From Pseudomonadota bacterium (GTDB lineage: Bacteria > Pseudomonadota > Gammaproteobacteria > Burkholderiales > JAKAFK01), in assembly GCA_021817985.1 (NCBI GenBank), contig JAKAFK010000038.1, forward strand, positions 1 through 35,288: a stretch of DNA of 35,288 nt, read 5' to 3'. The notes below the pieces were generated by a model that ran no database searches, had not been told where the DNA came from, and saw only the letters and a list, made by a program, of their open reading frames with translations. Positions 5,905 to 33,555 of this stretch are shown here, piece after piece; the first letter of the stretch is position 1; each line of letters opens with the position of its first letter. Position numbers and translations under genes: made by a program.

Positions 5905-6972
5905 CTATTTTGTGGGTTTTACCTTGTCGCCGAGACGCACATAATGCTCGGTCATGGTGACAGATCCGTGCCCGAGCTGGCGCCTTGCGTCGAGGATGCC
6001 GGCCGAATCCGCTTTGTCGGTCCCGGCTTTCGCGCGCAGGTCGCGAAATTGGAAGGCCTTGATGAGTGGCTTCAGGGTTTCGTCGGCATGCTCCGCCGCT
6101 GCGGCCCGCGCCTTTTCGAAGGCATTGTCGAGGGCGCAGTAGGTGAGCGACTGTCCATAGCTGTTTACGAGCAGCTTGAGAGTGCGAACTTTGAACTGGC
6201 GCTTTCGTTCGTTAATGCGGTCGATGAGCTTGCCCAGCTCGTTTTGCGTGCCGTCCTCGTTGAGGAGGGAGATCCGCAGGCGTGCGCCGGTCTTGTTCTG
6301 GGTGATCGCCAGTTCGTTTTCGCGGATATCCGTCTCCGACATCTTCACGACATCGGCCGGGCGTTGCCCGGTGAGATAGGCCAGATCCATTGCGTCGCGA
6401 ACGCTTGGATTTGCATAAGCGTAGACCGCACGGAACACCTGGTCATCGATATAGATGTCCCGCCGCCCGGTTTCCTTGAAGCCCTTCACTCCACGGCAAG
6501 GGTTGTCCCGTGCGGTCAACCCGCGTTCGCGGCTGAAGTTCCATATGGCCGAGAATAGCGCCTTCTCGCGGTTTGCGCGCACCTTGGCGGTTTTTCCGCG
6601 CCAGTCCATGTATTGGCGGATGTGGATTGGTTCGATCCGATCGAGGGGGGCGGGCGGGTTGTCGAAAAACTGGTACAGGTGCCCCAGCTCGGCCAGATTG
6701 TCCTTGCGGGTGCGGGCGGCTTTGCCGGGCAGCGCTTCCTTGACATAGCGCTCGGCCGCATACCGGAAGGTAATGATCTCGACATGTCGCGGCGCGGCAT
6801 CGATCTCAAGCTCGGCCCATTTCTTCACCGCCATCGGATAGTCATCGCCCAGCGGGATCTCATGCCGCGGTTTCTTGCCGGTGTCGTAATAGTAATAGAC
6901 CTTCCCGCTGCGCTGCTTTCTGGCGCGCAGCCCTTTGGGCAGGTTGTTGTTGACGCTGGGTTTCCGCCCCAT
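5905..6972 (-). CDS. int: Tyrosine-type integrase (site-specific recombinase)
   Basis: This 355-residue protein has the full tyrosine recombinase layout: a basic N-terminal arm-binding region, a SAM-like core-binding domain (residues about 65 to 155), and a catalytic domain with Arg204 (TGQRPAD), Lys227, Arg313 (FRDLRAKAGT), His335 (LGHGS) and Tyr344 (TEHYVR). The first His of the HxxR box is Arg310, as is common in this phage and island subgroup. It should integrate and excise the element that extends to its right. It is the last gene of the minus-strand operon starting at 9928 and begins 9 bases past the DUF4224 gene stop, so its level is probably set by the repressor-controlled promoter upstream. 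Complete, with no damage seen. Confidence 0.95.
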   Translation of the reverse strand: MGRKPSVNNNLPKGLRARKQRSGKVYYYYDTGKKPRHEIPLGDDYPMAVKKWAELEIDAAPRHVEIITFRYAAERYVKEALPGKAARTRKDNLAELGHLYQFFDNPPAPLDRIEPIHIRQYMDWRGKTAKVRANREKALFSAIWNFSRERGLTARDNPCRGVKGFKETGRRDIYIDDQVFRAVYAYANPSVRDAMDLAYLTGQRPADVVKMSETDIRENELAITQNKTGARLRISLLNEDGTQNELGKLIDRINERKRQFKVRTLKLLVNSYGQSLTYCALDNAFEKARAAAAEHADETLKPLIKAFQFRDLRAKAGTDKADSAGILDARRQLGHGSVTMTEHYVRLGDKVKPTK

Positions 6973-14199: not shown

Positions 14200-14850
14200 T
14201 CAGACATCCATTTCCATTTTTACAACAACGCCGCAAATCTGCGTTTCTTCGCGAAGCTCCATAATGGGATACCGTGGATTCAGCGGCTTTAGGTATTGCC
14301 GTGATCCGTCGATTTGAAGTTGTTTGAAGGTGGCCTCTGCGCTTCCTGATTCGAGTACCACAACGAATGACCCATGTCTGGCCTCGCGCGTCGGATCAAC
14401 AATAATCACGCACCCGTCAGGGAATTTAGTTTCCATGCTGTCGCCGTTAACGCGGAGCGCATAGGCATTTTGGCCGACCTTTGCTGTAGTCTGATAGAAC
14501 TCTTCAGCCTCGCTAAGCGGGATATTGTCGGTTACTGCACACCAGTCGCCTGCACGTACCCAAGAGATCAGCGGGACGCGGCCGTGAATCTCAGGACCTA
14601 GTGCAGTATTCGCCGCTTCATTGAAATATTGCTTCGGCAAACCCGCCCGCCTTGCCATATTGAGGGCTGCCTTTTCTCCGAATGTTCGATGCCCATTAAG
14701 TATTTGTGATACATAGGTTTCGTCGATTGGTTTATCAGCGTCTCTCTGAGAATATCTTTTTGCGAATGCCGCGGGGCCGCCGGCCTCATCGACAAGCCTT
14801 CGAAGTTTTGCAACGCGCGGGCTATCTATAGTCATCTTTGCTATTTTCAT
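14200..14850 (-). CDS. CI-like repressor with LexA-type self-cleavage domain
   Basis: A 216-residue protein with an N-terminal helix-turn-helix (residues about 12 to 70; DETYVSQILNGHRTFGEK holds the recognition helix) and a C-terminal S24 peptidase domain: cleavage site Ala100-Gly101 (WVRAGDW), Ser138 (NGDSMETKF) and Lys176 (ATFKQLQ). All residues for RecA-stimulated self-cleavage are present, so DNA damage should inactivate it. It diverges from the cro-like gene and should bind the ATAGCANNTGCTAT palindromes between them and those before the integrase operon, holding the element quiet. A second in-frame ATG at 14835 is possible. Confidence 0.9.
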   Translation of the reverse strand: MKIAKMTIDSPRVAKLRRLVDEAGGPAAFAKRYSQRDADKPIDETYVSQILNGHRTFGEKAALNMARRAGLPKQYFNEAANTALGPEIHGRVPLISWVRAGDWCAVTDNIPLSEAEEFYQTTAKVGQNAYALRVNGDSMETKFPDGCVIIVDPTREARHGSFVVVLESGSAEATFKQLQIDGSRQYLKPLNPRYPIMELREETQICGVVVKMEMDV

Positions 14851-14913: not shown

Positions 14914-14919
14914 TGGGCC

Positions 14920-15198
14920 ATGAATCTCGAAGCTTACTTATCCGCCGGAATCGAAACTGCGGCGAGTCTCGCGCGCAAGCTCGACATTTCCCCTGCTCTG
15001 ATCAGCCAATGGAGAACTGGTGTTCGCCCCATCCCCGTTAAGCGCTGCTCGGCCATCGAACTCGCAACCAAAGGAGCCATCCACCGCCGCGACCTACGTC
15101 CCGATGACTGGATGGACATCTGGCCCGAGTTGGCCGCAAACGACGGGTCGGCTGCAGACCGCCGCATTACCGCCGACCGCCGGAAGGACACCAAATGA
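14920..15198 (+). CDS. Cro/YdaS-like transcriptional regulator
   Basis: A 92-residue protein with a compact helix-turn-helix (SLARKLDISPALISQWRTG) followed by RPIPVKRCSAIELATKGAIHRRDLRPDDWMDIWPEL, the signature of YdaS-type Cro proteins. It lies opposite the CI-like gene and should compete for the same operators, favouring the active state. The ATG is very close to the predicted transcript start, so the leader is only a few bases. Its stop overlaps the next start (ATGA). Confidence 0.9.
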   Translation: MNLEAYLSAGIETAASLARKLDISPALISQWRTGVRPIPVKRCSAIELATKGAIHRRDLRPDDWMDIWPELAANDGSAADRRITADRRKDTK

Positions 15199-15497: not shown

Positions 15498-15563
15498 ATC
15501 ACAATTTGCCAGAGAGGCGAGGGCGACGCTTGACCAACAAACGCAACAAGAAAGGGGAGAGTC

Positions 15564-15896: not shown

Positions 15897-15897
15897 C

Positions 15898-16494: not shown

Positions 16495-16572
16495 CGAGGC
16501 GCTCGACTGGCATGAACGCAACATTCACGAATCTTGCGAAGCAGGGCCTCGGAAATCCAGGATGTCTCGGCC

Positions 16573-17103: not shown

Positions 17104-17218
17104 GCGGCACCTCCTGTCAAGGGGGTTTTATCACAATTCGACAACTGGTGATATGGGGCGATATGTGGCGGATTGAAGCAGGTCAGAGTGCGCGGGCTTG
17201 GGCGAAAGGGGAATCGGC

Positions 17219-18118
17219 ATGAGCTTGGATGCGCTTTCCTGGGCCTTTAATCTTGATTTGCCGAGTTCCGGGGCCAAGTTGACGCTCTTGGCGCTCGCGA
17301 ACTTCGCGGACGAGCACGGCGAAGCGTATCCGAGCCAGAAAGCCATTTCCGTAAAAACCTGCCTGTGCGAGCGGGCGATTCGCGCGCATCTCGTGACCCT
17401 GGAAAACCTTGGCGTAATCACGCGGATATCCCGCAAGCGCGCGAATGGTTCCTTCACTTCCGACAGATTCAAAATCCACATCGGGGCTGTCTTGACCGGC
17501 GGGGGAGCGTGCCAGCGGCAGATTCTGCCGGAGGCCGAGAGCCTTAATAACCAGCGGCAGATTCTGCCAGCGGCACATTCTGCCGACGGCAGAAAACGAC
17601 CGCAGCCAGCGGCAGATTCTGCCGGACCAGAAACGTCACTAACTACAACCGTAAATACACTACTACACACTACTGAGTTAACTGGAACCACCGCGCGCGA
17701 AAGCGCGGATCCGGAAGAGCGTGTGTGTGTGGATTTGATTTTCCCATCCGTTCCCGAACACATCCGATCCGCGCTGATGCAGATCATGGAACCGTGCGAT
17801 CCCCTTGCCAAACAGCCTATCCTCGACGAGCTCAGCGGAGCGCTGTCGAGCGGCACCTGCAGAAACCCGGTGACGTTCACACGGTCACTGGTGAAGGCCG
17901 CGATGCACGGAGCGTTCTATCCATCGCTTGGGGTGGAGGTTGCGCGGAAACGGGCGCAGGCGGCGGCCCGCGAGAAGGCCATGGCCACGGCGCCGGCACC
18001 GTCGGACCCGGTGGCCCGCCGTAAAGGCCAGGAATTCATCGAGACCATCAGAGAACGCCGAAAGCGGGACCCGCGAAGCGGCGGTGAAGAAAAACCGGAA
18101 ATCCGCGCATCGGGGTAG
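17219..18118 (+). CDS. HTH replication-type protein containing an internal iteron array
   Basis: A 299-residue protein. The N-terminal domain (residues 1 to about 90; MSLDALSWAF, then FADEHGEAYPSQKAISVKTCLCERAI) is the winged helix-turn-helix found in plasmid and phage replication initiators such as lambda O. Residues 98 to 135 are a low-complexity linker made by DNA repeats, a polar stretch follows, and the C-terminal half is helical and basic with an ERRKRDPR tail. The gene carries four 18-bp palindromic iterons and then an AT-rich run, as lambda O carries its own origin. It should bind these iterons and recruit a host or element helicase loader. ATG 17219 starts on the conserved domain. 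Confidence 0.8.
   Translation: MSLDALSWAFNLDLPSSGAKLTLLALANFADEHGEAYPSQKAISVKTCLCERAIRAHLVTLENLGVITRISRKRANGSFTSDRFKIHIGAVLTGGGACQRQILPEAESLNNQRQILPAAHSADGRKRPQPAADSAGPETSLTTTVNTLLHTTELTGTTARESADPEERVCVDLIFPSVPEHIRSALMQIMEPCDPLAKQPILDELSGALSSGTCRNPVTFTRSLVKAAMHGAFYPSLGVEVARKRAQAAAREKAMATAPAPSDPVARRKGQEFIETIRERRKRDPRSGGEEKPEIRASG
17512..17690 (+). other. Candidate replication origin: four 18-bp iterons plus AT-rich stretch
   Basis: The 18-mer CCAGCGGCAGATTCTGCC occurs at 17512-17529, 17551-17568 and 17606-17623, with a one-base variant at 17567-17584. Each copy contains the palindrome GGCAGATTCTGCC. All lie inside the linker of the HTH gene. They are followed from about 17632 to 17690 by an AT-rich, ACTAC-repeating stretch that could be the unwinding element. 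Number, length, symmetry and order match the lambda origin plan; function is inferred. Confidence 0.65.
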
Positions 18119-18207
18119 AAAGCCGGATCACGAAGCGTGAACCGGCGTCAAAGCCTTACGGCGCTGTCAAGTTGAATCAATCGAAAAAACCGCAAAGGGG
18201 CAAGAGC

Positions 18208-19269
18208 ATGAATGCCAGTAGTGCATCACTCGATTTCGGCCGCGATGAACTGACGGAAACACGGATTCAGGAGGTGGCGGTCGACACCATCCGCCCGGAT
18301 CCGGATCAGCCACGGCGGTACTTTGACGAAGAAGCGATGTCGGAACTGTGCGCGAGCATGTCGCTGTATGGGCTGCTGCAGCCGGTGGGAGTGCGGAAAG
18401 CCGCTGATCGGGGGTGGGATCTGATTTTCGGTGAGCGCCGTCTGCGCGCCGCGATCGAACTCGGCTGGAAAACAATTTCCGCCCGCGTTTACCCAGTGGA
18501 CGCCCGAAAGATCAAGACCGTGCTGCAGCTTGGGGAGAATGCACACCGCGCCGATCTGTCGCTCCTCGAATACCTCGGGGGGATCGATCAGTTGCGGACA
18601 CTTGGCGTGCCGGCCGGGGCGATCGCCCGCATGCTGTGCAAACCCGAGGAGTGGGTTACGGCACTGCTCGATATCAGCAGGGACCCGCTGGCGCGGTCGC
18701 TGTATGAATCCGGCATCATGACGCACGTGGGGGCCTGGGAATCGTTCTGCCGTCTCCCCGAGCATCTGCGAAACGGGCTCCTGCAAAGCGGCGAACAGTT
18801 GACTCCCTTGCGCTGCAAGAGAGCCCTCGATGCGCACGAAGCACAAAAGCCGGCGCGTCAGCTGGGGCTGATTCCGGACGCGGAAGGGGACAACCGCGAG
18901 TCGGGGTCGCACGTTGACGCCGAAATCGTTTCTAGTCCGGAGATTCAGGGGGCCAACGAACCCGGGTTTGCGGTGGTGACCACCGATGCAGTGCCGGTGG
19001 GCAGTGCGGATCGAAGCGAACATGCTCCTGTCCCGTGCGGCGCGGGGTTTGCCCCGACCATCGCGCGCGCTGATACTGGCGCCGCCGACAGCGCGGGGCC
19101 GTCGCACGGCCCCGTCGGATGCGCCGCCTGGGATACTGCGGCGACCATCCGCGTGGAATTTCCGGTGGCGTTGGCACAGGCGCTGCTGCCTGGAAAAAAT
19201 CCGTTGGATGACGACATTGCTGAGGCCATGATTTGTGCCATCAGCGCGCTCCTGGAGGGACGGCCATGA
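18208..19269 (+). CDS. parB: ParB-family protein with long C-terminal extension
   Basis: A 353-residue protein. Residues about 15 to 110 are the ParB N-terminal (CTP-binding) domain: IRPDPDQPRRYFDEEAMSEL, then LQPVGVRK and GERRLRAAIELGW, followed by the NAHRADLS box and a helix-turn-helix (residues 115 to 200). After that comes a poorly conserved linker of about 90 residues and a short helical end. It could act in partition or, as some plasmid ParB proteins do, in transcription. The closest ParA is 2 kb away on the other strand beside its own ribbon-helix-helix partner, so this ParB may work alone. ATG 18208 is preferred over the upstream TTG at 18172. Confidence 0.87.
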   Translation: MNASSASLDFGRDELTETRIQEVAVDTIRPDPDQPRRYFDEEAMSELCASMSLYGLLQPVGVRKAADRGWDLIFGERRLRAAIELGWKTISARVYPVDARKIKTVLQLGENAHRADLSLLEYLGGIDQLRTLGVPAGAIARMLCKPEEWVTALLDISRDPLARSLYESGIMTHVGAWESFCRLPEHLRNGLLQSGEQLTPLRCKRALDAHEAQKPARQLGLIPDAEGDNRESGSHVDAEIVSSPEIQGANEPGFAVVTTDAVPVGSADRSEHAPVPCGAGFAPTIARADTGAADSAGPSHGPVGCAAWDTAATIRVEFPVALAQALLPGKNPLDDDIAEAMICAISALLEGRP

Positions 19270-20791: not shown

Positions 20792-20989
20792 TCATTTACT
20801 CAGATACGCCGATACGGCCTGTTCGATGAGTTCTGTCACGGTCATATCGCGCTCGATCGCGGCCTTCTTCCAGGTCTTGCGGGTGGACTCCGGTACGTTG
20901 ATGTTGATGCGGACCACGGCCCCTTTGGCCGCATCCTGCACCGGCACAGTCGGGCGAACCTGGTCCAGTTTCTTCGCTGTCAGAGCCAT
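20792..20989 (-). CDS. Ribbon-helix-helix partition or regulatory protein
   Basis: A 65-residue protein. The disordered, basic N terminus is followed by GAVVRININVPESTRKTWKKAAIERDMTVTELIEQAVSAYL, a classic ribbon-helix-helix fold like ParG or CopG. It is encoded right after parA with a 10-base overlap, the usual place for the centromere-binding partner of a short ParA. It should bind the repeated GTGTNCATACTC motifs upstream of parA, both as operator and as partition site. Confidence 0.85.
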   Translation of the reverse strand: MALTAKKLDQVRPTVPVQDAAKGAVVRININVPESTRKTWKKAAIERDMTVTELIEQAVSAYLSK

Positions 20990-21615
20990 GCCGCCTCCTC
21001 CAATTCCTTGACGATCAGATCGATCTCCGCCTTGGCCAGGCCGTCCCGCGTCTCGTAGACGCTCACGCCATCGGTTAGCGCCTGGGCGTAGCTGACACGG
21101 TTGGATACCGCCGTGTCCAGCATGTCTAGGCCGTATTCATTCCAGTCTCCGGCCAGAATGTCCCGCGAAAGATTCGTGCTGCTGGACACCCGTGTGGGCA
21201 GAAAGGCCGCATCGATGGTGCCGCCGATGTCGCGCTTGCCCTGAATAAGCTTTACGGCAGCCGCGGACGCCCAAACGTCTGCGCCCGACGGTTGCACGGG
21301 AATGATGGCGACATCGGCGATGCGCACCACATTGGCAGACATCTTCTCCGCTTTGGCGGGGGTGTCGATGACGATGATTTCGGCGACCAGGGTCTTGATG
21401 GAGGTCAGCAGCAACTCGGGTCGGTCCAAAACGATCACGGGCGGAAGGTCCGTTGCCGCCGGCGACGCCTCGCGCCAGTCGCGCGCCGTGCCTTGTGGAT
21501 CCGCGTCGATCAGGATGACTTGCCGACCGCTGCGGTGCAGCGCGCAGGCCAGGTTGATCGCGCACGTGCTCTTGCCCGACCCGCCTTTTTCGTTCAATAG
21601 GGCGATGATCTTCAT
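20980..21615 (-). CDS. parA: ParA-family partition ATPase (type Ib)
   Basis: A 211-residue protein with no N-terminal DNA-binding domain. The deviant Walker A is KGGSGKST (from Lys10), then LIDADPQGTARDW (Walker A'), and EIIVIDTPAK (Walker B). It forms ATP-dependent patterns on the nucleoid and moves the element to daughter cells together with the ribbon-helix-helix protein. ATG 21615 begins directly at the conserved MKIIALLNEKGG, so the longer upstream start is rejected. Confidence 0.93.
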   Translation of the reverse strand: MKIIALLNEKGGSGKSTCAINLACALHRSGRQVILIDADPQGTARDWREASPAATDLPPVIVLDRPELLLTSIKTLVAEIIVIDTPAKAEKMSANVVRIADVAIIPVQPSGADVWASAAAVKLIQGKRDIGGTIDAAFLPTRVSSSTNLSRDILAGDWNEYGLDMLDTAVSNRVSYAQALTDGVSVYETRDGLAKAEIDLIVKELEEAAWL

Positions 21616-21617
21616 AG

Positions 21618-21695
21618 GTGTACATACTCCCCGGAGTGGATGTGTAGATGAGTATACCACACGCGAGCGCATGGGTGTGCATACTCACATACTCC
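21618..21695. promoter_or_regulatory. Repeated operator/centromere-like motifs upstream of parA
   Basis: Copies of GTGTNCATACTC lie at 21618-21630 (GTGTACATACTCC), 21650-21662 (inverted, GAGTATACCACAC) and 21675-21686 (GTGTGCATACTC), with a partial copy CACATACTCC at 21686-21695. Such direct and inverted short repeats before a ParA gene with a ribbon-helix-helix partner normally form its operator and partition site. Confidence 0.65.
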
Positions 21696-23186: not shown

Positions 23187-23635
23187 TTAAAACGTGGCTT
23201 CGTCTGGTGCTTGTGGCGGCGATCGTCGGAGTGGCCCCGCTGGCGCATGCGTATATGTGCTTCGCCGAGGCGGGGGTGCGTTACCGCGTCTCGCCGATTC
23301 TACTCGAAGCCATCGCAGGCCACGAATCGGGGTTTCGACCGAGACTTGTTCATCGGAACAAGAATGGATCGGTGGATATCGGGCTGATGGGGATCAATTC
23401 ATCATGGTATCCCAGACTTGCGCGCTTCGGGATCACGCCCCGAGACCTTTTCCACGAATGCACGAACATCATGGTGGGGGCATGGATACTCGGGCTAGGC
23501 GTCCAGCGGTATGGGATGACTTGGAAAGCCGTGGGTGTCTACAACTCACCGGATTCGGCACGCTATCAGGGTCTGTATGCCCGTTACATTTACGCCGAAA
23601 TTCAGCACCTTCTGGAGGGGGGAAATGAACGGTAA
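23183..23635 (+). CDS. Lytic transglycosylase of the pilus operon
   Basis: A 150-residue SLT-family enzyme: signal peptide to AHA (residue 23), then CFAEAGVRYRVSPILLEAIAGHESGF with the catalytic Glu48, DIGLMGINSSW and VGVYNSP. It cuts peptidoglycan to make room for the pilus; in IncI1 plasmids the equivalent gene is called pilT, a name that elsewhere means a retraction ATPase, so I leave the symbol empty. It overlaps the genes on both sides. Confidence 0.88.
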   Translation: MIKTWLRLVLVAAIVGVAPLAHAYMCFAEAGVRYRVSPILLEAIAGHESGFRPRLVHRNKNGSVDIGLMGINSSWYPRLARFGITPRDLFHECTNIMVGAWILGLGVQRYGMTWKAVGVYNSPDSARYQGLYARYIYAEIQHLLEGGNER

Positions 23636-24353
23636 GAACATCGTCGTCGTGCTGTTCGCGACTATTGTGACGGGCGGATTGGCGGCAGCAGCCACCTGCG
23701 AGCCGGCCGCGCAATACCAGGTCCGCGACATGAATTTCGATCGTATCCCTCTGGGACAGGCGCTGGCGCAAGCCGTCGAGGGCACGCCATTGGGGATCGA
23801 CATGGAAAGCCATACCCCCCTGAAGATTGGGGCGCGACACGTGAGCGGCCCGCTTGATGTGGTCCTCAACAAAATGGCTGGCTTCGCTCATGTCACGTGG
23901 AGCCAGAGCGGATGCATCGTCCATGTCCGCCTGGACCCGTCCGACACACGCGGATCGGTGACCACACCAGCTTTGGCGAAACCAGTCCCGTCAACGCACA
24001 CGTCCCTCGCCCAGACGAATCCGCCCCACCAGAACACGAACGCATCGCACGTTTCGGACGCATCGCCGCAACACGTCCGCATCCGTCTCTGGCAGGTGAC
24101 CGCTGGGGCCTCGCTCAACCAGACGATCGCCGCCTGGGCGGCGAAGGCCGGCTGGACGCCTTACTGGGAGCTGCCGAAAGACAAGGTCTACACGGTGAGC
24201 AGCGACGCGACGTTCACGGGCAACTTCCGCGCGGCGGTAATGGGGTTGGTGGCCGCGCTCAATGCCCGCGGCGTGTGGCTGCACGCACATTTCTCGGGCG
24301 GCAACCGAGTCTTGGAGATCTGGGGCACGTCGATGCCGCAGGTTGGGGAGTGA
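23625..24353 (+). CDS. PilL/TcpQ-like pilus protein, second copy
   Basis: A 242-residue exported protein. The signal peptide runs to about residue 22 (VLFATIVTGGLAAAA). An N-terminal beta domain (MNFDRIPLGQALAQAVEGTPL) resembles the short STN-like domain of secretin helpers. After a Thr/Pro/His linker comes the TcpQ domain (WQVTAGASLNQTIAAWAAKAGW, then YTVSSDATFTGNFRAAVMGL). It should dock on the secretin PilN encoded next, 3 bases downstream. The ATG at 23625 has GGAGGGGGG upstream. Confidence 0.8.
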   Translation: MNGKNIVVVLFATIVTGGLAAAATCEPAAQYQVRDMNFDRIPLGQALAQAVEGTPLGIDMESHTPLKIGARHVSGPLDVVLNKMAGFAHVTWSQSGCIVHVRLDPSDTRGSVTTPALAKPVPSTHTSLAQTNPPHQNTNASHVSDASPQHVRIRLWQVTAGASLNQTIAAWAAKAGWTPYWELPKDKVYTVSSDATFTGNFRAAVMGLVAALNARGVWLHAHFSGGNRVLEIWGTSMPQVGE

Positions 24354-24356
24354 ATC

Positions 24357-26075
24357 GTGCAGCATAAGACCAAATTTCTTTGCGCGGCTGTCCTCGGGGC
24401 GATGCTCGCCTCATGCTCGACCGCATATGTCCGTCCAATCCGCCAGTCGGTGCACCGGACGCTGGCGCACGCCAACGGCGATGTCGCCCGTGGAATCGCG
24501 GCGAACAACCCGCAGTCGGCGGTGACCGTCGGCAACGATGTGTTCATGGCCGTGACGGCGAAGACCGTCCACAACATCGCCGCGTCGTGGCCGGCGGCGC
24601 TTAAGGCGACAGTGGCGATCCACCGGCACTTCGGCTCACTGTACGAAGCCGCGGCCTATATCACGAAAGTGACTGGCATCCCGTCCTATGTCGCACCGGA
24701 TGTCATGTCCGGCTTCTCGACGGGGGGGATGTCCGGGTTGAGCACCCCGGGCATCGGGATGCCGGCAGGCATGCCACCACCTATACCTGTGGTGGGCGGG
24801 CAGGCGCCACAAGGCATGCCGCCCGGCAGCGCATCTTCGTACACGGCGATGCTCTACGGCACGCCGTATGGGCCGTCGTCCATCGAATATGTAGGCCCCG
24901 CGTCCGGTGCGCTCGATGCCATCGCAGGACAGTACGGGATCAGCTGGCGGTACGGTGACGGCCGCATCCAGTTTTTCCGGTACGAGACCAAAACGTTCGT
25001 GCTGGACGCCATCCCCGGCAATTCGTCGCTGGAGAGCACCGTGTCGGATGCCGGGCAATCGTCCAATGCCACCGGGACGACCGGAACTGGCGGAACATCG
25101 GGCACGGGTGACTCCAACCAGACGACGATCACCGCGAAATCTTTGTCGGTTTGGGATGGGATCGACAAGTCCATCACCGCGATGCTTTCTCATGGCGGGA
25201 AAGTGGTCGTGTCGCCTGCTGTCGGCACGGTCACGGTCACTGACATTCCCATGGTCGTCGATCGCGTGGCCGCATACATCCGGCAGCAAAACGTGGCGCT
25301 CTCGCGACAAGTCGAGATCCGCGTCCACGTGTACCGCGTGACGCTCTCCCACGAGGACCAGTACGGGATCAACTGGGGCGTGGTCTACAAGTCCCTCGCG
25401 AAAAACGTCGGGTGGGCCTACTCGAACATCAACAGCCTCGTGACGAATCAGGCTGCGGCGGGCTTGACGCTGAACATCCTGCCCACGGCGGGAGCGAATA
25501 CCGGCGCCGACATCGGCGCCTGGACCGGGTCGCAGGCGCTCCTGCAGGCGCTCTCGACCCAAGGCGCCGTCGCCGTTCGAACGTCCGCCGACCAGCTGAC
25601 TCTCAATGACCAGCCTGTTCCCCTGGTGGACGGGCGCGACCAGGTCTATGTCTCGAACACCGAGACGACGCCTTCGACCACGGCGGGCGTGGCGCCGACG
25701 ACGACGATCCAGCAATCCACGCTGTCAACTGGCTTTTCGATGGTCATGCTCCCGCACATCCTGTCCGATCGCCTGCTGATGATGCAGTTCTCGCTTAAAA
25801 ATGCGGATCTGGTGGCCATGAACACCCAGGTGGAAAACGGCACGACTGTGCAGCAGCCGACAACCGACAAGCAAAAGACCATTCACCGGTTTCTGGTCGC
25901 TTCCGGCCAGACCCTGGTCCTTGCCGGATTCGACCAATACACCCAGTCCGCGAACACCCAAGGGATAGGCAACGCATCCAACGTGCTGGCCGGAGGGGGC
26001 GTGGACGGCCAGCGGCAGCATATGGTCCTGGTCATCGTGATCCAGCCCATCATCATCCCATCGCCGCAGGCGTGA
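24357..26075 (+). CDS. pilN: PilN-type secretin lipoprotein
   Basis: A 572-residue outer-membrane channel of the thin pilus. A lipoprotein signal with lipobox LASC puts the lipidated Cys at residue 20. Gly/Met/Pro-rich and Ser/Thr/Gly-rich linkers separate the periplasmic domains. The C-terminal secretin domain includes VEIRVHVYRVTLSHEDQYGINWG, GFSMVMLPHILSDRLLMMQF and FLVASGQTLVLAGF. It forms the ring through which the pilus leaves the cell. The start is GTG. Confidence 0.93.
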   Translation: MQHKTKFLCAAVLGAMLASCSTAYVRPIRQSVHRTLAHANGDVARGIAANNPQSAVTVGNDVFMAVTAKTVHNIAASWPAALKATVAIHRHFGSLYEAAAYITKVTGIPSYVAPDVMSGFSTGGMSGLSTPGIGMPAGMPPPIPVVGGQAPQGMPPGSASSYTAMLYGTPYGPSSIEYVGPASGALDAIAGQYGISWRYGDGRIQFFRYETKTFVLDAIPGNSSLESTVSDAGQSSNATGTTGTGGTSGTGDSNQTTITAKSLSVWDGIDKSITAMLSHGGKVVVSPAVGTVTVTDIPMVVDRVAAYIRQQNVALSRQVEIRVHVYRVTLSHEDQYGINWGVVYKSLAKNVGWAYSNINSLVTNQAAAGLTLNILPTAGANTGADIGAWTGSQALLQALSTQGAVAVRTSADQLTLNDQPVPLVDGRDQVYVSNTETTPSTTAGVAPTTTIQQSTLSTGFSMVMLPHILSDRLLMMQFSLKNADLVAMNTQVENGTTVQQPTTDKQKTIHRFLVASGQTLVLAGFDQYTQSANTQGIGNASNVLAGGGVDGQRQHMVLVIVIQPIIIPSPQA

Positions 26076-26086
26076 AGGAAGCATTT

Positions 26087-26548
26087 ATGAGACCACGGAT
26101 TCTGATCGCCGCCATCATGACGTTCGTTGCCGTGTCCGCATGGGCGGCCCCAACGGTTCCGCCGGCGCCGGCCACTGATACGCCGGCTCGACAGATGAGT
26201 CATCTGTCGACCGAAATCACCATCCTCAAGAAGGAACTGGAGGTCGCCAAGCTGAGGACGGAGATCGCGGCGGGCGGAGCACCGTCGTCATCTCTGCCTG
26301 CGCCAGGCGCGGCATTGCCCCTGCCGCCGGGCGGGCAGGGGGCGTTGCCTCCCGCTCCGTCCGCGCAAATCAAGGTGTGGTCGATCGCGCGCCGCGAAGG
26401 GCGATTCGTCGCCACGCTCTCCGTGGACGGACAGGCCGTCGACGTGCGGCAGGGGGACGCGGTCAACGGCGGATGGCGCGTCGCGACGATCACGACGAGG
26501 ACCGTCATCCTCAAGCGCGGCGGTTCCGTCAAAACTCTGCGAATCTAG
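26087..26548 (+). CDS. pilP: PilP-type pilus assembly protein
   Basis: A 153-residue protein with a signal peptide to AWA (residue 15), a short coiled coil (LSTEITILKKELEVAKLRTEI), a Pro/Gly linker and a C-terminal beta domain (FVATLSVDGQAVDVRQGDAV, then WRVATITTRTVILKRGG) like the GspC/PilP homology region. It should link the inner-membrane platform with the secretin. ATG 26087 has AAGGAAG upstream; the GTG at 26072 is rejected. Confidence 0.88.
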   Translation: MRPRILIAAIMTFVAVSAWAAPTVPPAPATDTPARQMSHLSTEITILKKELEVAKLRTEIAAGGAPSSSLPAPGAALPLPPGGQGALPPAPSAQIKVWSIARREGRFVATLSVDGQAVDVRQGDAVNGGWRVATITTRTVILKRGGSVKTLRI

Positions 26549-26556
26549 GTGAGCCC

Positions 26557-27603
26557 ATGAGCCTGCTGAACAAGATCATCACACAGATCCGGTCCGATGT
26601 GCCGTGGTCGGATTTGCACATCGAACAGGACGCGCCGGTGATGGCGATGGTGCCGGGCGGGTGGGCCGAAGTCGAAACGGACTATCAGCCCGGGAAGCCG
26701 GAAATGGAGGAGCTACTCGGCAAGCTCAACCATGAGTGGAAACGGATCATCGGTACCCAGTCCATCAAGAGAACGACGCACTTCGATGGATGGCGCGTGC
26801 GTCTCACCGCTTGCATGGCATCGGCCGGCACGAAATACGTCGTGTCCGTCCGCCGCATTCCCGTGGCCCCGCCGACTATCGAGAGCTATGGCCTCCCGGA
26901 AGTGTTGGAAGACATCGCGAGAAGCAAGAGCGGGATCTTCCTGGTGGGGGGGCCGACAAGATCGGGCAAATCGACGACGCTCGCCGCCATGATCGATTAC
27001 ATCAATGGCGGTTTCGCCAAGCACATCGTCACGATCGAGGACCCGATCGAATTCGCACACGAGCGCAAGCGGTCGATCATCACGCCGCGCGAAGTCGGGC
27101 TCGATGTCGAGTCTTTCCACAAAGGGGTGCTCGACGCCATGCGTCAAAGCCCGGACATCATTCTCGTGGGCGAGATCCGCGATCACGAGACGGCTGAGGC
27201 GGCTTTTCTCGCCGCGGAATCAGGGCACCTCGTGCTCGCCGGCACCCACGGGTCCACGATCCATCTCTCCATCCAGAAGCTCCTGAACCTCTTCCCCCCG
27301 GAAAAGAGGGAGGCCAAGGCGGGCGTGCTTGCGGCCCACTTGGTTGGGGCGATGAGCCAGCAGCTGCTTCCAAGGGCCGATCGGAAGGGCTGGGCGCTGG
27401 CGTCGGAGTGGATGTTCAACTACCAGCGGAGGTTCACGAAGAACGTGGCCGACGTGGAGCGTCTGGGGGAAATCATCGCGCGCGACGGGAACGACGGATG
27501 CGCGATGACGCTGCGAAAGTCCTTGTTGGCGTTGAACGGCACCGTGCGGCCGGAAGACATCGCCGCCGCGAGCGATATCAATCTCGGAGCGATCCGGGCT
27601 TAG
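26557..27603 (+). CDS. PilT-family pilus ATPase (retraction-type)
   Basis: A 348-residue ATPase: Walker A GGPTRSGKSTT (residues 131 to 141), the Asp-box TIEDPIEFAHE, Walker B PDIILVGEIRD, and the His-box GTHGSTIHLSI. Its length and the short N-terminal domain match PilT rather than the larger PilQ/PilB class. PilT-type motors pull pili back. IncI1 thin-pilus loci normally have a single ATPase, so this gene is an addition. It lies between pilP and pilO within the operon. Confidence 0.88.
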   Translation: MSLLNKIITQIRSDVPWSDLHIEQDAPVMAMVPGGWAEVETDYQPGKPEMEELLGKLNHEWKRIIGTQSIKRTTHFDGWRVRLTACMASAGTKYVVSVRRIPVAPPTIESYGLPEVLEDIARSKSGIFLVGGPTRSGKSTTLAAMIDYINGGFAKHIVTIEDPIEFAHERKRSIITPREVGLDVESFHKGVLDAMRQSPDIILVGEIRDHETAEAAFLAAESGHLVLAGTHGSTIHLSIQKLLNLFPPEKREAKAGVLAAHLVGAMSQQLLPRADRKGWALASEWMFNYQRRFTKNVADVERLGEIIARDGNDGCAMTLRKSLLALNGTVRPEDIAAASDINLGAIRA

Positions 27604-27615
27604 AGAAGAAGGCAG

Positions 27616-28884
27616 ATGGCACAACAGCAAACAGTCGCACGGATCGTCACGCTGCCCGGTATCAAGCACCGGTTCGCCGCGGGAATGTACTGGAACCACG
27701 AGGAACGCCGGCCAAGCGCGGCCACGCTTGCGAAGAACTCGAAGGAATTCGGGCGATGGGGGCTTGGCCGGCAAACACTGCTTAAAAGCTGGCAATCGGG
27801 CTACACCGCTCCCATCCCGGGAGTGAAGTCCACCGATGGAATCCTGTCGCTCGCGGCGGTCATCGCCGATGTCCGGCCTGAGCCGTGGCAGGGCATGTAT
27901 GAATTGGGCGATGGCGTGTACTGGCTGATCGCCGTCCGCGATAACCAGCAAATAATCCCCGGCGGTGACGCCATTGGAGGCTACGACGACATCGTGCGCC
28001 TGCAGGCGGAGATCGCGTCGATCACGTCGCACACGCAATGGGATTACCGGCACGGCAATGCGCAGGAGCTCGCGCAGATCATTCTGACCGATGGCGCGAA
28101 GTACCTCTCCTCCGCGAGAATTAAAGACCTACAGCACAAATCGTGGGTCGCGCCGATGATGACCGCCGCCGGCGTCGCCGTGGTGGGCGGTGTGGGGATG
28201 CATCTCTGGCATGCCCACGAGGCCCGGGTGGCCATCGAACGCGCGCAGGCGCTGGCGCGAGAGCGTGCCATTGAACGCGCGATGGCCCAGAAGGCCGCCG
28301 CTGCCGCGCAACATGTCGTGCCCTGGCAGCAGGTGCCTACCGTCGGGAATTTCCTTGGTGCTTGCGAGAGGGCATGGAATGCTCAATCCCTCGATATCGG
28401 GGGCTGGAATCTCGCCAGATGGGATTGCGTCCTCGAGGGGGCAGGCGTATCCATCCGGACGCGATGGACGAATGCGGGCGGAACGCCCTTCGAGGCGCCC
28501 GGTACGATTTCTCCAGACGGGATGACATCCCGTCTGGCGGGCACTGGTCCTCAAGTGGATCCGGTGAGCCCGCCGATCGTGGAGGACTTCGATGCCGCCG
28601 CACGGAGCCTTTTGGACATCCAGTCCATCGGGGCGGCCAAGATCGCGATCCGGCGCGATCAGGCGCAGCCGGGCCCGAACCCGGCGATGAATACGTCTCC
28701 CGCCCAACCTTGGGGCGTTGCGCAGGTGCATATCGAATCCGCCGCGCCGCTGTGGTCTCTGGATCTTGGTGATCGTCTTGACGCCATTCCGGGCTTGCGG
28801 CTCGAGGAAGCGTCATGGTCACGGGCCAACGGGGGTTGGATGTCGAGCGGAGACTTGTACGTCCGAAAAGGAGGCTTGCCATGA
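27616..28884 (+). CDS. pilO: PilO-type thin-pilus protein
   Basis: A 422-residue protein. A cytoplasmic N-terminal domain (WLIAVRDNQQIIPGGDAI, then WDYRHGNAQELAQIIL) is followed by one membrane segment (about residues 178 to 195, PMMTAAGVAVVGGVGMHLW), a charged coiled coil (HEARVAIERAQALARERAIERAM) and a periplasmic domain with conserved Trp and Cys residues. This is the PilO2/PilO layout of IncI1-type pili, a platform part between motor and secretin. Its stop overlaps the pilQ start. Confidence 0.88.
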   Translation: MAQQQTVARIVTLPGIKHRFAAGMYWNHEERRPSAATLAKNSKEFGRWGLGRQTLLKSWQSGYTAPIPGVKSTDGILSLAAVIADVRPEPWQGMYELGDGVYWLIAVRDNQQIIPGGDAIGGYDDIVRLQAEIASITSHTQWDYRHGNAQELAQIILTDGAKYLSSARIKDLQHKSWVAPMMTAAGVAVVGGVGMHLWHAHEARVAIERAQALARERAIERAMAQKAAAAAQHVVPWQQVPTVGNFLGACERAWNAQSLDIGGWNLARWDCVLEGAGVSIRTRWTNAGGTPFEAPGTISPDGMTSRLAGTGPQVDPVSPPIVEDFDAAARSLLDIQSIGAAKIAIRRDQAQPGPNPAMNTSPAQPWGVAQVHIESAAPLWSLDLGDRLDAIPGLRLEEASWSRANGGWMSSGDLYVRKGGLP

Positions 28885-30728
28885 TTCCGTCTCTCATAGG
28901 CTCAGTTGCCGAAGCGACTCGCAACGGTTTGAGCGACTCCGACCGTCGCCTCGGACAGATGTTGATCGCCAACGACATGATTACGCAGGAGGAGCTCGAC
29001 GAGGCCATCAAGCGCCAAACCCAATCGAGAGTGAAAGGGCGTATCGGAGCCATCCTTCTGGACATGGGCGTCGTCACCCAGGAGGAACTGGGCACCATCG
29101 CCTCCGAGCAGGCCGATAGCGTTGGCCTGCCCCCCATGCCCGACTCGGCCTCGAGCTATGCGGTCAGGATCGGGCATGTGGTCTATGTGATGGCGGGGCA
29201 AGAGGGAAGCTCGGCGCTCTTGTCATGGCGGCAGCATGTGCGGCACCGCGTGGGCGACTTGATCGAGGTGAAGACGTGCGATTCGGAGGAATGGGCCAGG
29301 CTCAAGCGCGAGGCGGCCACCGGAGAGCGCCGGAGCGATCTGGTCAAGCACAAGGCCGTGCGGCGCGCGAAGACGATGTTTCTCGACGCGGCGCGGCGGA
29401 ACGCGTCCGACATCCACCTCACATTGCAGAAGGACGACGATGGCGAGGGATCGGTGCTCGTGCAATATCGTCTCAACGGATCACTCATTCGCATGCCGGA
29501 CATGCCCCTGGCTCACGGCGAACCGATGTTCCGCGCCTTGTTCCAGTCGATGGCGACAGTCAAGGACGCCAACGTCATGGAGACGGATGACCAGCATGCG
29601 GTGATTTCGGACCACTCCCTTTTATCCGACAGCACGCGCGACAACCAGGTTTCCCTGGCGGGGATACGTCTGGCCAGGAGCCCGATCGTGCACGGCCAGT
29701 GCATGGCGCTGCGGTTGCTCTACAACCACAAGAGCGATGCGAAAGGCAACGATCGCCTGACGACGCTTGGCTATTCGCGGCGCCATTTGCGTACCTACGC
29801 CCATCTGGCTCGCCTGAAAATGGGGATCAACCTGCTGACCGGTCCTACCGGGTCAGGGAAATCCACCACCTTGTTTGCGCAGATCAACGCGATCGTCGAC
29901 ACGCGGGACGGGATCCGGGTCATTACGATGGAAGATCCGATCGAGCACGAATTCAACCACCCGCGCATCTGGCAATACAGGATGGCCAACGCCAACAGCG
30001 ACGAGGCCAAGGCGGCGCTTTTCGAGAAGAAGCTCAAGACCGCCCTGCGCGAGGATCCGGACCTCGTGATGGTAGGGGAAATCCGCGGACTCGAGGTCGC
30101 GCAGGAGGCGATCAACGCGTCCATCACAGGGCACCCTGTCTGGTCGACGCTACATGCGGCGGATCCGTTCATGATCGTGCCCCGGCTCGTGGGAATGGGG
30201 GTCGACCGTTTCATGTTGGGCGACCCGTCCGTGCTGTCCTCATTCACGGCGCAACGTCTCGTCAAAACGGTTTGCCCTCATTGCGAACAGGTCCTGATGG
30301 GAGACCCGCGCGCCATCTTGCCGGAGAATGAGGCGCGGGCACTGGAGGCATGGGCGGAATTGAGCACGTTCGGCTCGTTCTCCGGGGTGCGCCTTCGGGG
30401 CACGGGGCGAGTGACGGGCGTCGACGCGGGGCCCAATGGCGACAAGAACATCTGCCCTCATTGCAGGGGCACCGGCGAAGGACCGCGCACGGTGATCGCG
30501 CAAGTGCTTCTGACGGACGAGGAACTGCTCCGGGACGCGCTCGATGAGGGCGCCGCTGTGGCGCGGCGGAAATACATGGCGCGCGAGGATGCCGAGGTCG
30601 GCATGATGGCGCATGGCTGTCTCAAGGTGTTGTCCGGGCGCATCGACCCGAGAGACCTCGTGGAGGCATTGGGTCCGCTGACCGCGCCCCCGCAGGAACA
30701 CCGCAAACTGACCGAGGATGATCTGTGA
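28881..30728 (+). CDS. pilQ: PilQ/PilB-type pilus extension ATPase
   Basis: A 615-residue GspE-family motor. An N-terminal MshEN-like domain (SDRRLGQMLIANDMITQEELDEAI) is followed by the nucleotide-binding core: Walker A GPTGSGKST (from residue 321), MEDPIEHEF, Walker B DPDLVMVGEIRG and the His-box TLHAADP. Four cysteines in two CPHC motifs form the zinc-binding module typical of extension ATPases. It powers pilin assembly. AAGGAGG precedes the ATG. Confidence 0.95.
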   Translation: MIPSLIGSVAEATRNGLSDSDRRLGQMLIANDMITQEELDEAIKRQTQSRVKGRIGAILLDMGVVTQEELGTIASEQADSVGLPPMPDSASSYAVRIGHVVYVMAGQEGSSALLSWRQHVRHRVGDLIEVKTCDSEEWARLKREAATGERRSDLVKHKAVRRAKTMFLDAARRNASDIHLTLQKDDDGEGSVLVQYRLNGSLIRMPDMPLAHGEPMFRALFQSMATVKDANVMETDDQHAVISDHSLLSDSTRDNQVSLAGIRLARSPIVHGQCMALRLLYNHKSDAKGNDRLTTLGYSRRHLRTYAHLARLKMGINLLTGPTGSGKSTTLFAQINAIVDTRDGIRVITMEDPIEHEFNHPRIWQYRMANANSDEAKAALFEKKLKTALREDPDLVMVGEIRGLEVAQEAINASITGHPVWSTLHAADPFMIVPRLVGMGVDRFMLGDPSVLSSFTAQRLVKTVCPHCEQVLMGDPRAILPENEARALEAWAELSTFGSFSGVRLRGTGRVTGVDAGPNGDKNICPHCRGTGEGPRTVIAQVLLTDEELLRDALDEGAAVARRKYMAREDAEVGMMAHGCLKVLSGRIDPRDLVEALGPLTAPPQEHRKLTEDDL

Positions 30729-31864
30729 GCCTGCCCGCATTCCTTCAGTCCGTGCTGGACGCCATGCTGGATTGGCCCGGCGTCTCGACGCTCATCGAAT
30801 GGAACACGATCATCGAGCGCAAGATGTGGTCGGCAAAAAAACGCCAGGCATTCTACAGGCGGCTCGCGATGTACAACGAAAACGAGGTGGGACTGCGAGA
30901 CGCCATCATGGAGTTGCACAACCAAGCGAGCGCCATGGGACCGCAATGGATGCGTCGGTTCGACGTCAATCTCAAGGCGCTTGCCGAGATATCCGATCGC
31001 CTGACGGTCGCGCCGCTGGCGGACGCGCTCGACGGATGGGCGCCGCTGTCGGAGCGCGGAATCATCCGCGCCGGTGAGGCCTCGGGTGCCGTTGTGGATG
31101 CCCTTCGATCGGCGGCCGGGCAGCAGGGGATGATCTCGCGTCTTGTCTGGAAGATCGTGATGGCGAGCTTCGAGCCAGGGATCATGCTGGCTGGCGTGGT
31201 CTATCTGGTTCTCGTGATCGGGAAAAACATGGTGGGGCCATTTTCTGCGGAAGTCCCGACCAGCAAATGGACCGGCATGGCGAAACTGTTGATCCCGATG
31301 GGCGCCATTGCGACATCGCCTATGACGGTTTGGGTGATTGTGGGATTTGTCATGCTCGCCATCGCGAGTTTCGTGACGATGCCCGTCTTTACGGGTCCGC
31401 TCCGCAAGCATCTCGACAAACTGCCGCCCTGGTCGATCTACAAGGCGATGCAGGCGGCATCCTGGATGACCGGGTTCGCGGCCATGGTGGATGCGGGCAC
31501 CCCAGTCGCGCAGGCGTTGCGACAGCAGGAGCAGTGGTCGACGCCCTGGCTGCGAGAACGGCTGGAGGCCGCGCGCGATCGTGTCGAGGGAGGTATGGAG
31601 CTGGGGGCGGCCCTTCATGATGCGGGGCACGACTTTCCCGACCGCATCTTGATCGCGGATATCAGGGCGTTCTCGGGATCGAAGAGGTTTGCCGAGATGC
31701 TGGGCAACATTGGACGGGAATGGCTCGAGGAGTATGAGACCCGTCTCATGGGATTCATTACGATGGCGGGGATCGGCTCGATCGTTCTCGTCAACGGGGT
31801 GATGGTCGTCGTCGTCATCGGCATGATGTCGCTGGAGAGCATCATGACCGCATCCATTCATTGA
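30725..31864 (+). CDS. pilR: PilR/GspF-type inner-membrane platform protein
   Basis: A 379-residue protein with the GspF layout: two repeated cytoplasmic helical domains, each followed by membrane helices. Membrane segments are seen at about residues 150 to 175 (IMLAGVVYLVLVIGKNMV), 198 to 225 (TVWVIVGFVMLAIASFVTM) and 348 to 375 (GSIVLVNGVMVVVVIGMM). It couples the ATPase to pilin assembly. The start overlaps the pilQ stop (ATGA-type). Confidence 0.92.
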   Translation: MSLPAFLQSVLDAMLDWPGVSTLIEWNTIIERKMWSAKKRQAFYRRLAMYNENEVGLRDAIMELHNQASAMGPQWMRRFDVNLKALAEISDRLTVAPLADALDGWAPLSERGIIRAGEASGAVVDALRSAAGQQGMISRLVWKIVMASFEPGIMLAGVVYLVLVIGKNMVGPFSAEVPTSKWTGMAKLLIPMGAIATSPMTVWVIVGFVMLAIASFVTMPVFTGPLRKHLDKLPPWSIYKAMQAASWMTGFAAMVDAGTPVAQALRQQEQWSTPWLRERLEAARDRVEGGMELGAALHDAGHDFPDRILIADIRAFSGSKRFAEMLGNIGREWLEEYETRLMGFITMAGIGSIVLVNGVMVVVVIGMMSLESIMTASIH

Positions 31865-31884
31865 TGCTTGCAAGGGAGGAGAAA

Positions 31885-32397
31885 ATGGGACTTACCGTTT
31901 TGTTCGCAGTAATCGTTGTCGTCCTGATGGCCGGGGCGGCATGGAAGTTTGGTCACTCGCTTTTCGGGAAGAGCGACACCACCGCGGTCTCGCAGGAGAT
32001 CAAGGCGATCGCGTCGAATGTCCAGGGCCATTATGCACAACTGGGTAGCTTCGCCGGGATCACGACGGCCACGGAAATCGCGAATGGGGACATCGAGTCA
32101 TCCTATGTGACCGGCGGGGCCGTCGACACTTCGTATGGCGGGACCATCGTGGTGGGTGGTCCCGCCAGTCTTAACGGCGGAACTGACAATGCTTTTGGAC
32201 TGACGGTCAATAACATGTCGCAGCAAGATTGCATCGACCTCGCGACGACGCAGGCGGCCTATGGGATCAACAGCGGCACCACCGTCGGAGCGGGCGTGAA
32301 CACGGCGAATGATCCCGCGACGGATGCGGAAGCCGGGACCATCTGCACGGCGGCGAATGGCAACGAACTCACGTTCACCTACACGCTTTCGGACTAA
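31885..32397 (+). CDS. pilS: PilS-type major pilin
   Basis: A 170-residue type IVb pilin. The hydrophobic N-terminal helix (LTVLFAVIVVVLMAGAAWKF) continues as an amphipathic helix, then a Gly/Thr/Asn-rich globular domain with Cys116 and Cys154 placed for the C-terminal disulfide loop. AAGGGAGGAG is ideally spaced for ATG 31885, which leaves a leader of only Met-Gly before the helix. An earlier ATG at 31864 would add a charged leader (MLAREEKMG) more like usual prepilins. The pilin builds the thin pilus used in mating on liquid or for attachment. Confidence 0.88.
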   Translation: MGLTVLFAVIVVVLMAGAAWKFGHSLFGKSDTTAVSQEIKAIASNVQGHYAQLGSFAGITTATEIANGDIESSYVTGGAVDTSYGGTIVVGGPASLNGGTDNAFGLTVNNMSQQDCIDLATTQAAYGINSGTTVGAGVNTANDPATDAEAGTICTAANGNELTFTYTLSD

Positions 32398-32402
32398 TCC
32401 TG

Positions 32403-33314
32403 ATGTCGCTTTCAGATCTGCCATTCGTCGACCTGAGCCTGCATGCGAACCCCGATCAGTGCCGCGTGAAGGGGGCGGACGGGACGATGGAGTTGTCGCC
32501 AGTTCCGCGAGAGTTGTGGCCGGAGGTTCATTCCCTCTACAGCGACCTTTGTGCGAAGGGTGACCAGACATCCTTTCGCACGGAATGGTCTGGGATGACC
32601 TTGCGGGCCACGCGTCGCACAACCCCGGCCGGCATCGTGTTTGTCGTGCGCCGCGGCAACAAGACGGTCCGGACGCTTGAGGAGATGCGGATTTCCCCCG
32701 CGATCATCGCCAAGCTGGTCGACCCGAAGATCAGAGGCGGGGCGGTGCTGTTTTGCGGGCCGCCCGCATCCCGGAAGACCACGTTCGCATGTGCGACGCT
32801 CAAGGCGCGCATGGAGAGGCTGGGCGGGTTCTGCTGGACAGCCGAGAATCCTGTCGAGTATGACATGCAAGGGCCGCACGGGAAAGGATACTGTTGTCAG
32901 GAGGAAATTGCCTCCGACGACGAGATACTGCGGGTGATGTCGGACACCCTTCGATCGAGCGCCGACATGTTCTTCATCGGCGAGATCCGCGAGAAGGCGG
33001 GTGCCGAGGCCGCCGTGCTGGCGTCGGCGTCAGGGATGTTCGTGGCCTCGACCTTGCATGCCGAGAGCACCCAACAGGCCATTCAGAAGATGGGGGCACT
33101 TGTCGGGTGGGCGGCCCTTGCCCAAATGCTCAAGGCCGTCATCACCGTGCGGCTGGAACGTATGGGCAACGAAACGGTCATGGGGCTGCAGCCGCTCGTC
33201 CTGGACGGCGTCGACGGCGACGGCATCCGCGCGAAAATCCGCGACGGAAACGTCGGCCTGCTGGCTTCCGACATCGACAAGCAACGGTTCCAGGCGCTCA
33301 ATCACTCATCATGA
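32403..33314 (+). CDS. Third pilus-type ATPase, altered Walker A
   Basis: A 303-residue protein of the PilT/GspE fold. The P-loop is GPPASRKTT (residues 119 to 127): the Gly before the invariant Lys is Arg124. TAENPVEYDMQ replaces the usual EDPIE box, Walker B reads ADMFFIGEIRE, and a His-box is present (TLHAES). The protein is short for the family. The changes suggest weak or no ATP hydrolysis, so it may be a regulatory or hexamer-mixing partner of PilQ or the PilT-like ATPase. It lies 5 bases after pilS. Confidence 0.82.
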   Translation: MSLSDLPFVDLSLHANPDQCRVKGADGTMELSPVPRELWPEVHSLYSDLCAKGDQTSFRTEWSGMTLRATRRTTPAGIVFVVRRGNKTVRTLEEMRISPAIIAKLVDPKIRGGAVLFCGPPASRKTTFACATLKARMERLGGFCWTAENPVEYDMQGPHGKGYCCQEEIASDDEILRVMSDTLRSSADMFFIGEIREKAGAEAAVLASASGMFVASTLHAESTQQAIQKMGALVGWAALAQMLKAVITVRLERMGNETVMGLQPLVLDGVDGDGIRAKIRDGNVGLLASDIDKQRFQALNHSS

Positions 33315-33547: not shown

Positions 33548-33555
33548 GATAAATC

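Follow-up and report, generated by a model that had tools for sequence, protein, structure and literature searches.

The window analyzed here, a 35,288-nt stretch of DNA from a bacterium of the Pseudomonadota, contains a gene for a helix-turn-helix (HTH) protein with a cluster of palindromic repeats inside its coding sequence. The question raised by this locus is whether the repeats form a replication origin written into the gene of its own initiator, as a sequence-only reading had proposed by comparison with gene O of phage lambda, or whether they have another role or none at all as DNA. Our analysis favors the first answer: with a probability of approximately 0.87, we consider that the array serves an integrative element as its replication origin and that the enclosing gene encodes the initiator, which would bind the dyads, open the AT-rich tract and bring the helicase through its C-terminal domain. 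The coordinates of the relevant features are compiled in Table 1.

Table 1. Features of the putative origin, the initiator gene and the surrounding element in the window.
Feature	Position	Strand	Basis or remark
Tyrosine integrase	5905..6972	-	profile match
Second S24 CI-like repressor, beside the first	13029-13508	-	profile match
CI-like S24 repressor	14200..14850	-	profile matches
YdaS/P22-Cro-like regulator, divergent from the repressor	14920..15198	+	promoter-like site 14885-14913
O-like putative replication initiator gene containing the candidate origin	17219..18118	+	PF13730, phrog_1032, start of DNA similarity
N-terminal winged helix, residues 1-93	17219..17497	+	AlphaFold model
Recognition helix, residues 51-63, with R52, R55 and A56	17369-17407	+	AlphaFold model
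Two 55-bp higher-order units	17495-17549, 17550-17604	+	37/55 identical at offset 55
Low-confidence linker, residues 95-162	17501..17704	+	encoded by iterons and AT-rich tract
Iteron copy 1	17512..17529	+	translated QRQILP
Iteron copy 2	17551..17568	+	translated QRQILP
Iteron copy 3, one change	17567..17584	+	translated PAAHSA, other frame
Iteron copy 4	17606..17623	+	translated PAADSA, other frame
AT-rich tract, candidate unwinding element	17624..17690	+	composition and position
C-terminal helical domain, residues 165-283	17711..18067	+	pLDDT 76-89 (10-residue means, residues 171-280)
ParB-like gene, in the place of lambda P (next after the initiator)	18172..19269	+	profile match
ParA-like ATPase	20980..21672	-	profile match
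Type IV pilus operon	23535..34032	+	TcpQ, secretin, PilT-type ATPase, PilO, GspE/PilB-type ATPase, T2SSF, T2SSE, PilM

Most of the anatomy described by the sequence-only reading was confirmed. The four 18-bp repeats, which span 17512-17623, are three exact copies of CCAGCGGCAGATTCTGCC and one with a single change, in which the core reads GGCACATTCTGCC; the last 2 bp of copy 2 are also the first 2 bp of copy 3. The palindrome claimed for each repeat holds as a dyad but not as an uninterrupted one, the 13-bp core pairing around an unpaired central base. When up to two mismatches were allowed, the core GGCAGATTCTGCC gave eight strand-matches in the window, every one at the four copies, compared with a mean of 1.57 and a maximum of 6 in 100 shuffles of the window, and in the 3.97-Mb genome the degenerate core GGCARANTYTGCC was confined to the three exact copies of the array. 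The repeats lie, as had been stated, within the linker of an HTH initiator-like gene, behind the HTH_36 domain and inside the open reading frame (ORF) 17198-18118. The AT-rich run behind them was also verified: no 60-mer of the gene is poorer in GC than positions 17628-17687 (38% GC vs 60% for the gene), which rank approximately 240th lowest among the 35,228 60-mers of the window. The sequence CACTAACTACAACCGT in this tract is common to the viral relatives L012 and L010.

The four copies are spaced 39, 16 and 39 bp apart on a 16/16/23 lattice, which is completed within the 55-bp arrangement by iterons that have decayed (17501, 17533) and by the half-site GGCAGA at 17588. Copies 1 and 2 share one codon frame and copies 3 and 4 another, since the 55-bp unit is a degenerate tandem duplication and 55 is not divisible by three. 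Because translation of the copies uses two frames, the repeats are an origin-like iteron array and not a protein repeat.

The ORF opens at 17198; its probable start is the ATG at 17219, at which DNA similarity to L005, L010 and L012 begins, and the open reading frame is 299 aa long. A Pfam scan of the protein yielded HTH_36 (PF13730) alone, at 33.1 bits (curated cut-off, 25), and no RepA_N domain. The best PHROGs match was phrog_1032, annotated as 'replication initiation protein' (E 2.4e-20), which aligned residues 8-135 (counted from 17198) with profile positions 1-106 of 281 and left the C-terminal part of the profile unmatched. Likeness to the STY4528-family island replication protein was weak and confined to the C-terminal part of the initiator: NF040582 matched residues 151-234 (E 8.5e-5) at 22.7 bits, below the NCBIfam cut-off of 130, and the N-terminal part was unmatched. 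As a separate observation, the C-terminal part of phrog_1032 (approximately 156-265) matched ORFs approximately 180-210 aa long in several genomes belonging to one family, and E. coli gave a signal in the control; these ORFs may be DnaT, in which case phage initiators would be tied to primosome loading.

The AlphaFold model divides the protein into a confident winged helix (10-residue pLDDT means of 90-97 to residue 70, then 81 and 90 to residue 90), a linker of low confidence (35-58 over residues 91-170) and a helical C-terminal domain, which is presumed to be the helicase-recruiting part. A Foldseek search of the PDB gave no match at an E value of 0.001 or better. The structural neighbors of the winged helix were mostly transcription factors, which held the best rows; initiator domains (4pql, 4pt7, 5kbj, RctB 5ube and DnaD 2v79) were also among them, with scores no better than the rest. 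Two of these entries, 4pt7 and 5kbj, are titled as an initiator or a Rep-DNA complex, and both, like 4pql, are proteins that we take to be RepA_N members. A common fold alone is no proof of function.

The precedent for an origin within its initiator gene is lambda ori in gene O, with its counterparts in the related Stx phages (PMC7466680, PMC5043065). As in the window, iterons with dyad symmetry lie in the initiator gene with an AT-rich tract behind them and cI/cro upstream; the lambda iterons are annotated as four 18-bp sites and likewise occupy several codon frames, three in all. The lambda plan was thus matched in its N-terminal DNA-binding domain, the symmetric iterons in the linker, the AT-rich tract and the CI/Cro-type switch upstream, and the iterons are, as had been noted, unrelated to those of lambda at the base level. 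The window differs from lambda in that a ParB-like gene, not a P-like gene, comes next, so that the O-P module layout is not reproduced, and in the presence of a pilus operon. A profile of 30 HTH_36 domains gave no meaningful match to lambda O, a non-detection that is not evidence of independent origin, and the two may be related at the level of the fold. From these comparisons, the description as a lambda-style origin appears well supported.

The suggestion that the locus might be an isolated, independent example was not borne out. Palindrome pairs were found in 16 stretches of viral contigs with a strict word and in 46 with a looser word, and at 34 of the latter 46 loci the array lay within an ORF encoding an HTH_36-like domain and began 3-137 nt past the profile match; these 34 ORFs encode very different proteins, and all three frames are used. 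The palindrome pair alone was rejected as a diagnostic, since GGCARAWTYTGCC pairs occurred in 69 genome stretches, just 5 of which were inside an HTH gene; 4 more had an HTH within 1 kb, and 60 of the 69 (L027-L095) had no HTH_36-like domain within 1 kb, which points to another use of the same word. Fourteen of the 69 stretches came from Azospirillum. Pairs of the scrambled palindrome GGACRANTYGTCC failed as a negative control, as 11 of 30 viral loci were in HTH genes; the array was therefore treated as general and its word as variable, and flanking regions were taken as the control instead.

On this basis, we examined relatives for an array in the same place. The pool comprised 200 loci, including 20 named phages and 40 further stretches hand-picked from listings; 14 loci without an HTH by profile were dropped, leaving 186, and filtering at 70% identity kept 88, of which 3 were too short and 85, including the window, were testable. 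Of the 84 relatives, chosen blind to repeats and counted without the window's own copy, 50 had a palindromic array of significance in this same linker, compared with 1 of 160 flanking control regions run at the final detector settings. An array was called significant when no more than 2 of 200 dinucleotide shuffles were as good, and it had to lie within 255 nt behind the domain; after phages were seen to be missed, the detector had been revised to allow dyad spacers of up to 5 instead of 4 and to cover 255 instead of 300 nt. Arrays were found in 14/20 named phages, 9/11 phrog_1032 genome hits, 13/17 further genome hits, 8/11 viral relatives and 6/25 generic PF13730 genome hits. The 34 relatives with no significant array thus include 19 of the 25 generic hits and 6 of the 20 named phages (S1249, Sansa, LagS-V1, BDU-MI-1, EBPR podovirus 2 and Tonitrus), and such a result is not proof of absence because the detector, applied to the whole lambda O gene, returned a word other than the known iterons. 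Array-positive phages include SfV, AsXd-1, QHHSV-1, JBD68 and ZF40, whose words differ, those of SfV and AsXd-1 being nearly alike. In several records of the 20 named phages, the gene has cI/cro-type genes upstream of it or adjoins one for a DnaB-type helicase or a P-like loader. A second, higher-scoring HTH_36 gene of the same genome (G000:C73:3864-4028; L159, L253), on a 5.1-kb contig, has no significant array.

In the array genes, counted with that of the window, the 70 nt following the array had a lower GC content than the rest of the gene in 44/50 cases and than the HTH part in 36/50. Iteron spacing was 20-24 bp, or approximately two helical turns, in 69 of 126 cases; the window, with its 16/16/23 lattice, differs. 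More than one frame was used by 28 of the 45 relatives with at least three copies, and one palindrome was translated RQNLP, AESA or GRFC depending on the gene. Because the palindrome stays constant while the reading frame varies between genes and copies, it is the DNA rather than the peptide that is kept. These data bear on the possibility that the repeats are a low-complexity linker at the peptide level, or a product of slippage, without function as DNA. The visible 55-bp duplication and the free drift of linkers would fit such an explanation, which we nevertheless regard as highly improbable in view of the dyad symmetry, the palindrome preserved through frame changes among copies and genes, and a link to the recognition helix that was prospectively confirmed at one position.

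This link is as follows. The iteron word varies among the relatives and tracks the recognition helix. For the class table, 106 loci were reduced to 74 domains less than 80% alike; 5 with fewer than two copies were dropped, and 19 classed as 'other' were excluded from the test. Columns 37, 41 and 40 of 74 were tied most closely to iteron class among the 50 classified proteins, with z values of 7.5, 6.0 and 6.0 (next, 4.0) that are exploratory because the classes were assigned by hand after the table had been made, some rows falling in loose classes (e.g., L201). By position, these columns fall on R52, A56 and R55, which the model of the window protein places in the recognition helix. In this post hoc set, Arg at column 41 was present in 11/11 proteins with a GAC half-site vs 4/58 others.

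Since the Arg rule was post hoc, predictions were put down while the results of new scans were still unseen. The viral scan gave at least 120 stretches with new TGACA pairs; among the matches listed, 14 were in HTH ORFs, all 14 non-redundant, and 14/14 of these proteins had Arg at column 41. Their likeness to a training protein never exceeded 74%, and in 12 of the 14 cases the nearest training protein was not of the GAC type. New GTGCA pairs also occurred in at least 120 stretches, with 77 in HTH ORFs and 52 non-redundant among the matches listed, and Arg was found at column 41 in 0/52 (Fisher test among the matches listed, 14/14 vs 0/52: p 1.3e-14, with proteins treated as independent). Outside the helix, the GAC proteins compared were 26% alike to each other vs 27% to others, and their nearest non-GAC neighbors had Arg in 1/25 cases; the overall nearest neighbor was also of the GAC type for 11 of 25, so that relatedness is not wholly absent. 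Other predictions did worse. That for TCCGr was partly realized (column 37 S/T, 4/4; column 40 N, 3/4; column 41 D/E, 1/4), and that of Gln or Met at column 40 in most GTGCA proteins failed, these residues being found in 21/52 among the matches listed. A search of 398 genomes for TGACA pairs returned 6 stretches, none in an HTH ORF. Since the TCCGr and column-40 predictions did worse, we describe a marker at one position rather than a code: in the sequences compared, column 41 is a strong marker of the iteron word. Column 41 of the window protein is Ala, and the Arg rule therefore bears on this protein as a member of the family only. These results suggest that helix changes in the protein go together with changes of the site, and the comparative tests indicate that the N-terminal domain reads its own iterons.

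The same association would arise if the dyads were operators and the HTH protein regulated transcription of its own gene or of an internal promoter, since dyad binding alone yields a helix-iteron link; HTH_36 also occurs in proteins without an array, as in the generic PF13730 hits above. We consider a regulator of this kind quite unlikely, however. The best PHROG matches are to replication initiation, named relatives adjoin genes for DnaB-type helicases or a P-like loader, and the sites fall within the coding sequence and are followed by the AT-rich tract. Furthermore, promoter-like sites in 14700-18300 were limited to 14885 and, on the opposite strand, 17811, where 0.8 were expected by chance.

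The initiator reading also agrees with how the similarity to viral DNA is distributed. Seven viral contigs showed 65-67% protein identity to initiator residues 1-138 and nothing beyond, and DNA similarity to the viral relatives ran from the ATG and faded inside the AT-rich tract. None of the 33 other window proteins tried matched the examined parts of these seven contigs. The whole window protein found no relative in the viral contigs, and tblastn with it gave six weak relatives in phages and three in plasmids. A same-order relative (G034, L021) resembles both ends of the initiator (residues 7-143 and 189-285, 31% identical) and adjoins a gene with coupling-protein-like matches. Because the similarity covers the winged helix, the iterons and the start of the AT-rich tract and ends there, these parts resemble a single cassette combined with various C-terminal portions, and recombination may have moved the winged helix-iteron cassette.

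The term 'integrative element' used by the sequence-only reading was borne out by the tyrosine integrase. Because this integrase is accompanied by a CI/Cro-type switch, ParA/ParB genes and a type IV pilus operon, the element resembles an integrative and conjugative element (ICE) more than a phage, although its region for control and replication is lambda-like. SPI-7-type islands have a similar layout. Between the CI and Cro genes, inspection by eye suggested a GCTAT-type operator dyad, for which a search found no match, and a TraI_2 (PF07514) relaxase was not found in the assembly, in which the contig ends in this region. The window also holds several other genes of interest: a DUF6932 gene paired with a phrog_18731 gene (11457-12958, minus strand), both of which match PADLOC candidate defence models (PDC-M63A and, weakly, PDC-M32A/M63B); a 209-aa C5-methyltransferase-like ORF (9006-9635, minus strand; phrog_32684, E 8.9e-79), which is short for a methyltransferase; a bactofilin gene near the integrase (7229-7702, minus strand); a single ORF combining a PAS domain with sigma-70 region 2 (1716-2660, plus strand); and, near the latter, an ORF with NERD and topoisomerase zinc-ribbon domains (2903-3613).

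Whether the window copy itself still replicates is a separate matter, as the origin might be real in the phage relatives and a decaying relic here. Two lattice positions have decayed and one is a half-site, and no helicase or loader was recognized among the subset of window ORFs scanned. Three copies are perfect, however, the 299-aa frame is open, and the ParA/ParB, integrase and pilus genes are open frames as well; we therefore think it unlikely that self-replication has been lost.

For a functional origin, we infer the following course of events. The winged helix (residues 1-93) would bind the 13-bp dyads GGCAGA-T-TCTGCC, probably with two subunits per dyad; several occupied dyads in a row would form a nucleoprotein complex, upon which the adjacent AT-rich tract (17624-17690) would open, and the helical C-terminal domain would then recruit the replicative helicase. 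The linker joining the two domains looks disordered, so that an origin could be written into it. The upstream CI-type/Cro-type switch would set transcription, and replication would follow induction and excision.

Parts of this plan are known from other systems. In pSK41, four Rep boxes lie midway through the rep gene and are recognized by the N-terminal domain of Rep, and the origin-encoded stretch is a linker (PMC5703833); the plan is that of the window, but RepA_N is another Pfam family, and its antisense RNA control and C-terminal partner differ. In the PLE satellites, the origin type and the DNA-binding domain of RepA covary and act as a module; unlike in the window, the PLE origin lies in a noncoding region and has three semi-palindromic iterons of approximately 30 bp, and the initiator is named RepA_N (PMC8263062). 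The ICE PFGI-1 of strain Pf-5 has an integrase, ParA/B-like genes, a pil operon and a putative oriV that, like the window, combines palindromic direct repeats with an A+T-rich part, but this oriV lies upstream of a gene, extends over approximately 1,100 bp and has other repeats (PMC2647930). PICI origins are described as 3' to the initiator gene (PMC6092414). HTH_36 proteins are named in the replication units of Stx phages in a report (PMC8951638) whose count for 'iterons' in the full text was 0. The literature searched, which covered few subscription papers, contained no mention of iterons within the genes of HTH_36 initiators and none of a helix-iteron rule. The origin-in-initiator plan (lambda, pSK41) and initiator-origin modules (PLE) are already known; what appears new, with respect to that literature, is the family-wide placement in HTH_36 initiators together with the helix-iteron marker.

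For this element, our reading implies that, once excised, it would replicate autonomously from its own origin; the SXT/R391 ICEs, by contrast, are reported to replicate from oriT (PMC4489591). For the family, we hold with somewhat better than even confidence that, across phages and integrative elements, HTH_36 initiators carry the origin in their own linker, that the recognition helix tells the word (Arg at column 41 with GAC half-sites) and that the segment of winged helix, iterons and AT-rich tract moves as a single replicon-specificity cassette. The plan is that of textbook lambda, but here it recurs in numerous members of a large initiator family; the words are diverse, and the protein shows a matching change. 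If this is true, a single stretch of DNA holds the reading head of an initiator and its cognate origin, which together would amount to a natural library of specificities. With such a library, origins could be located and their compatibility guessed from the sequences of many phages and mobile islands; it would also provide a natural set for learning how winged-helix initiators choose their DNA.
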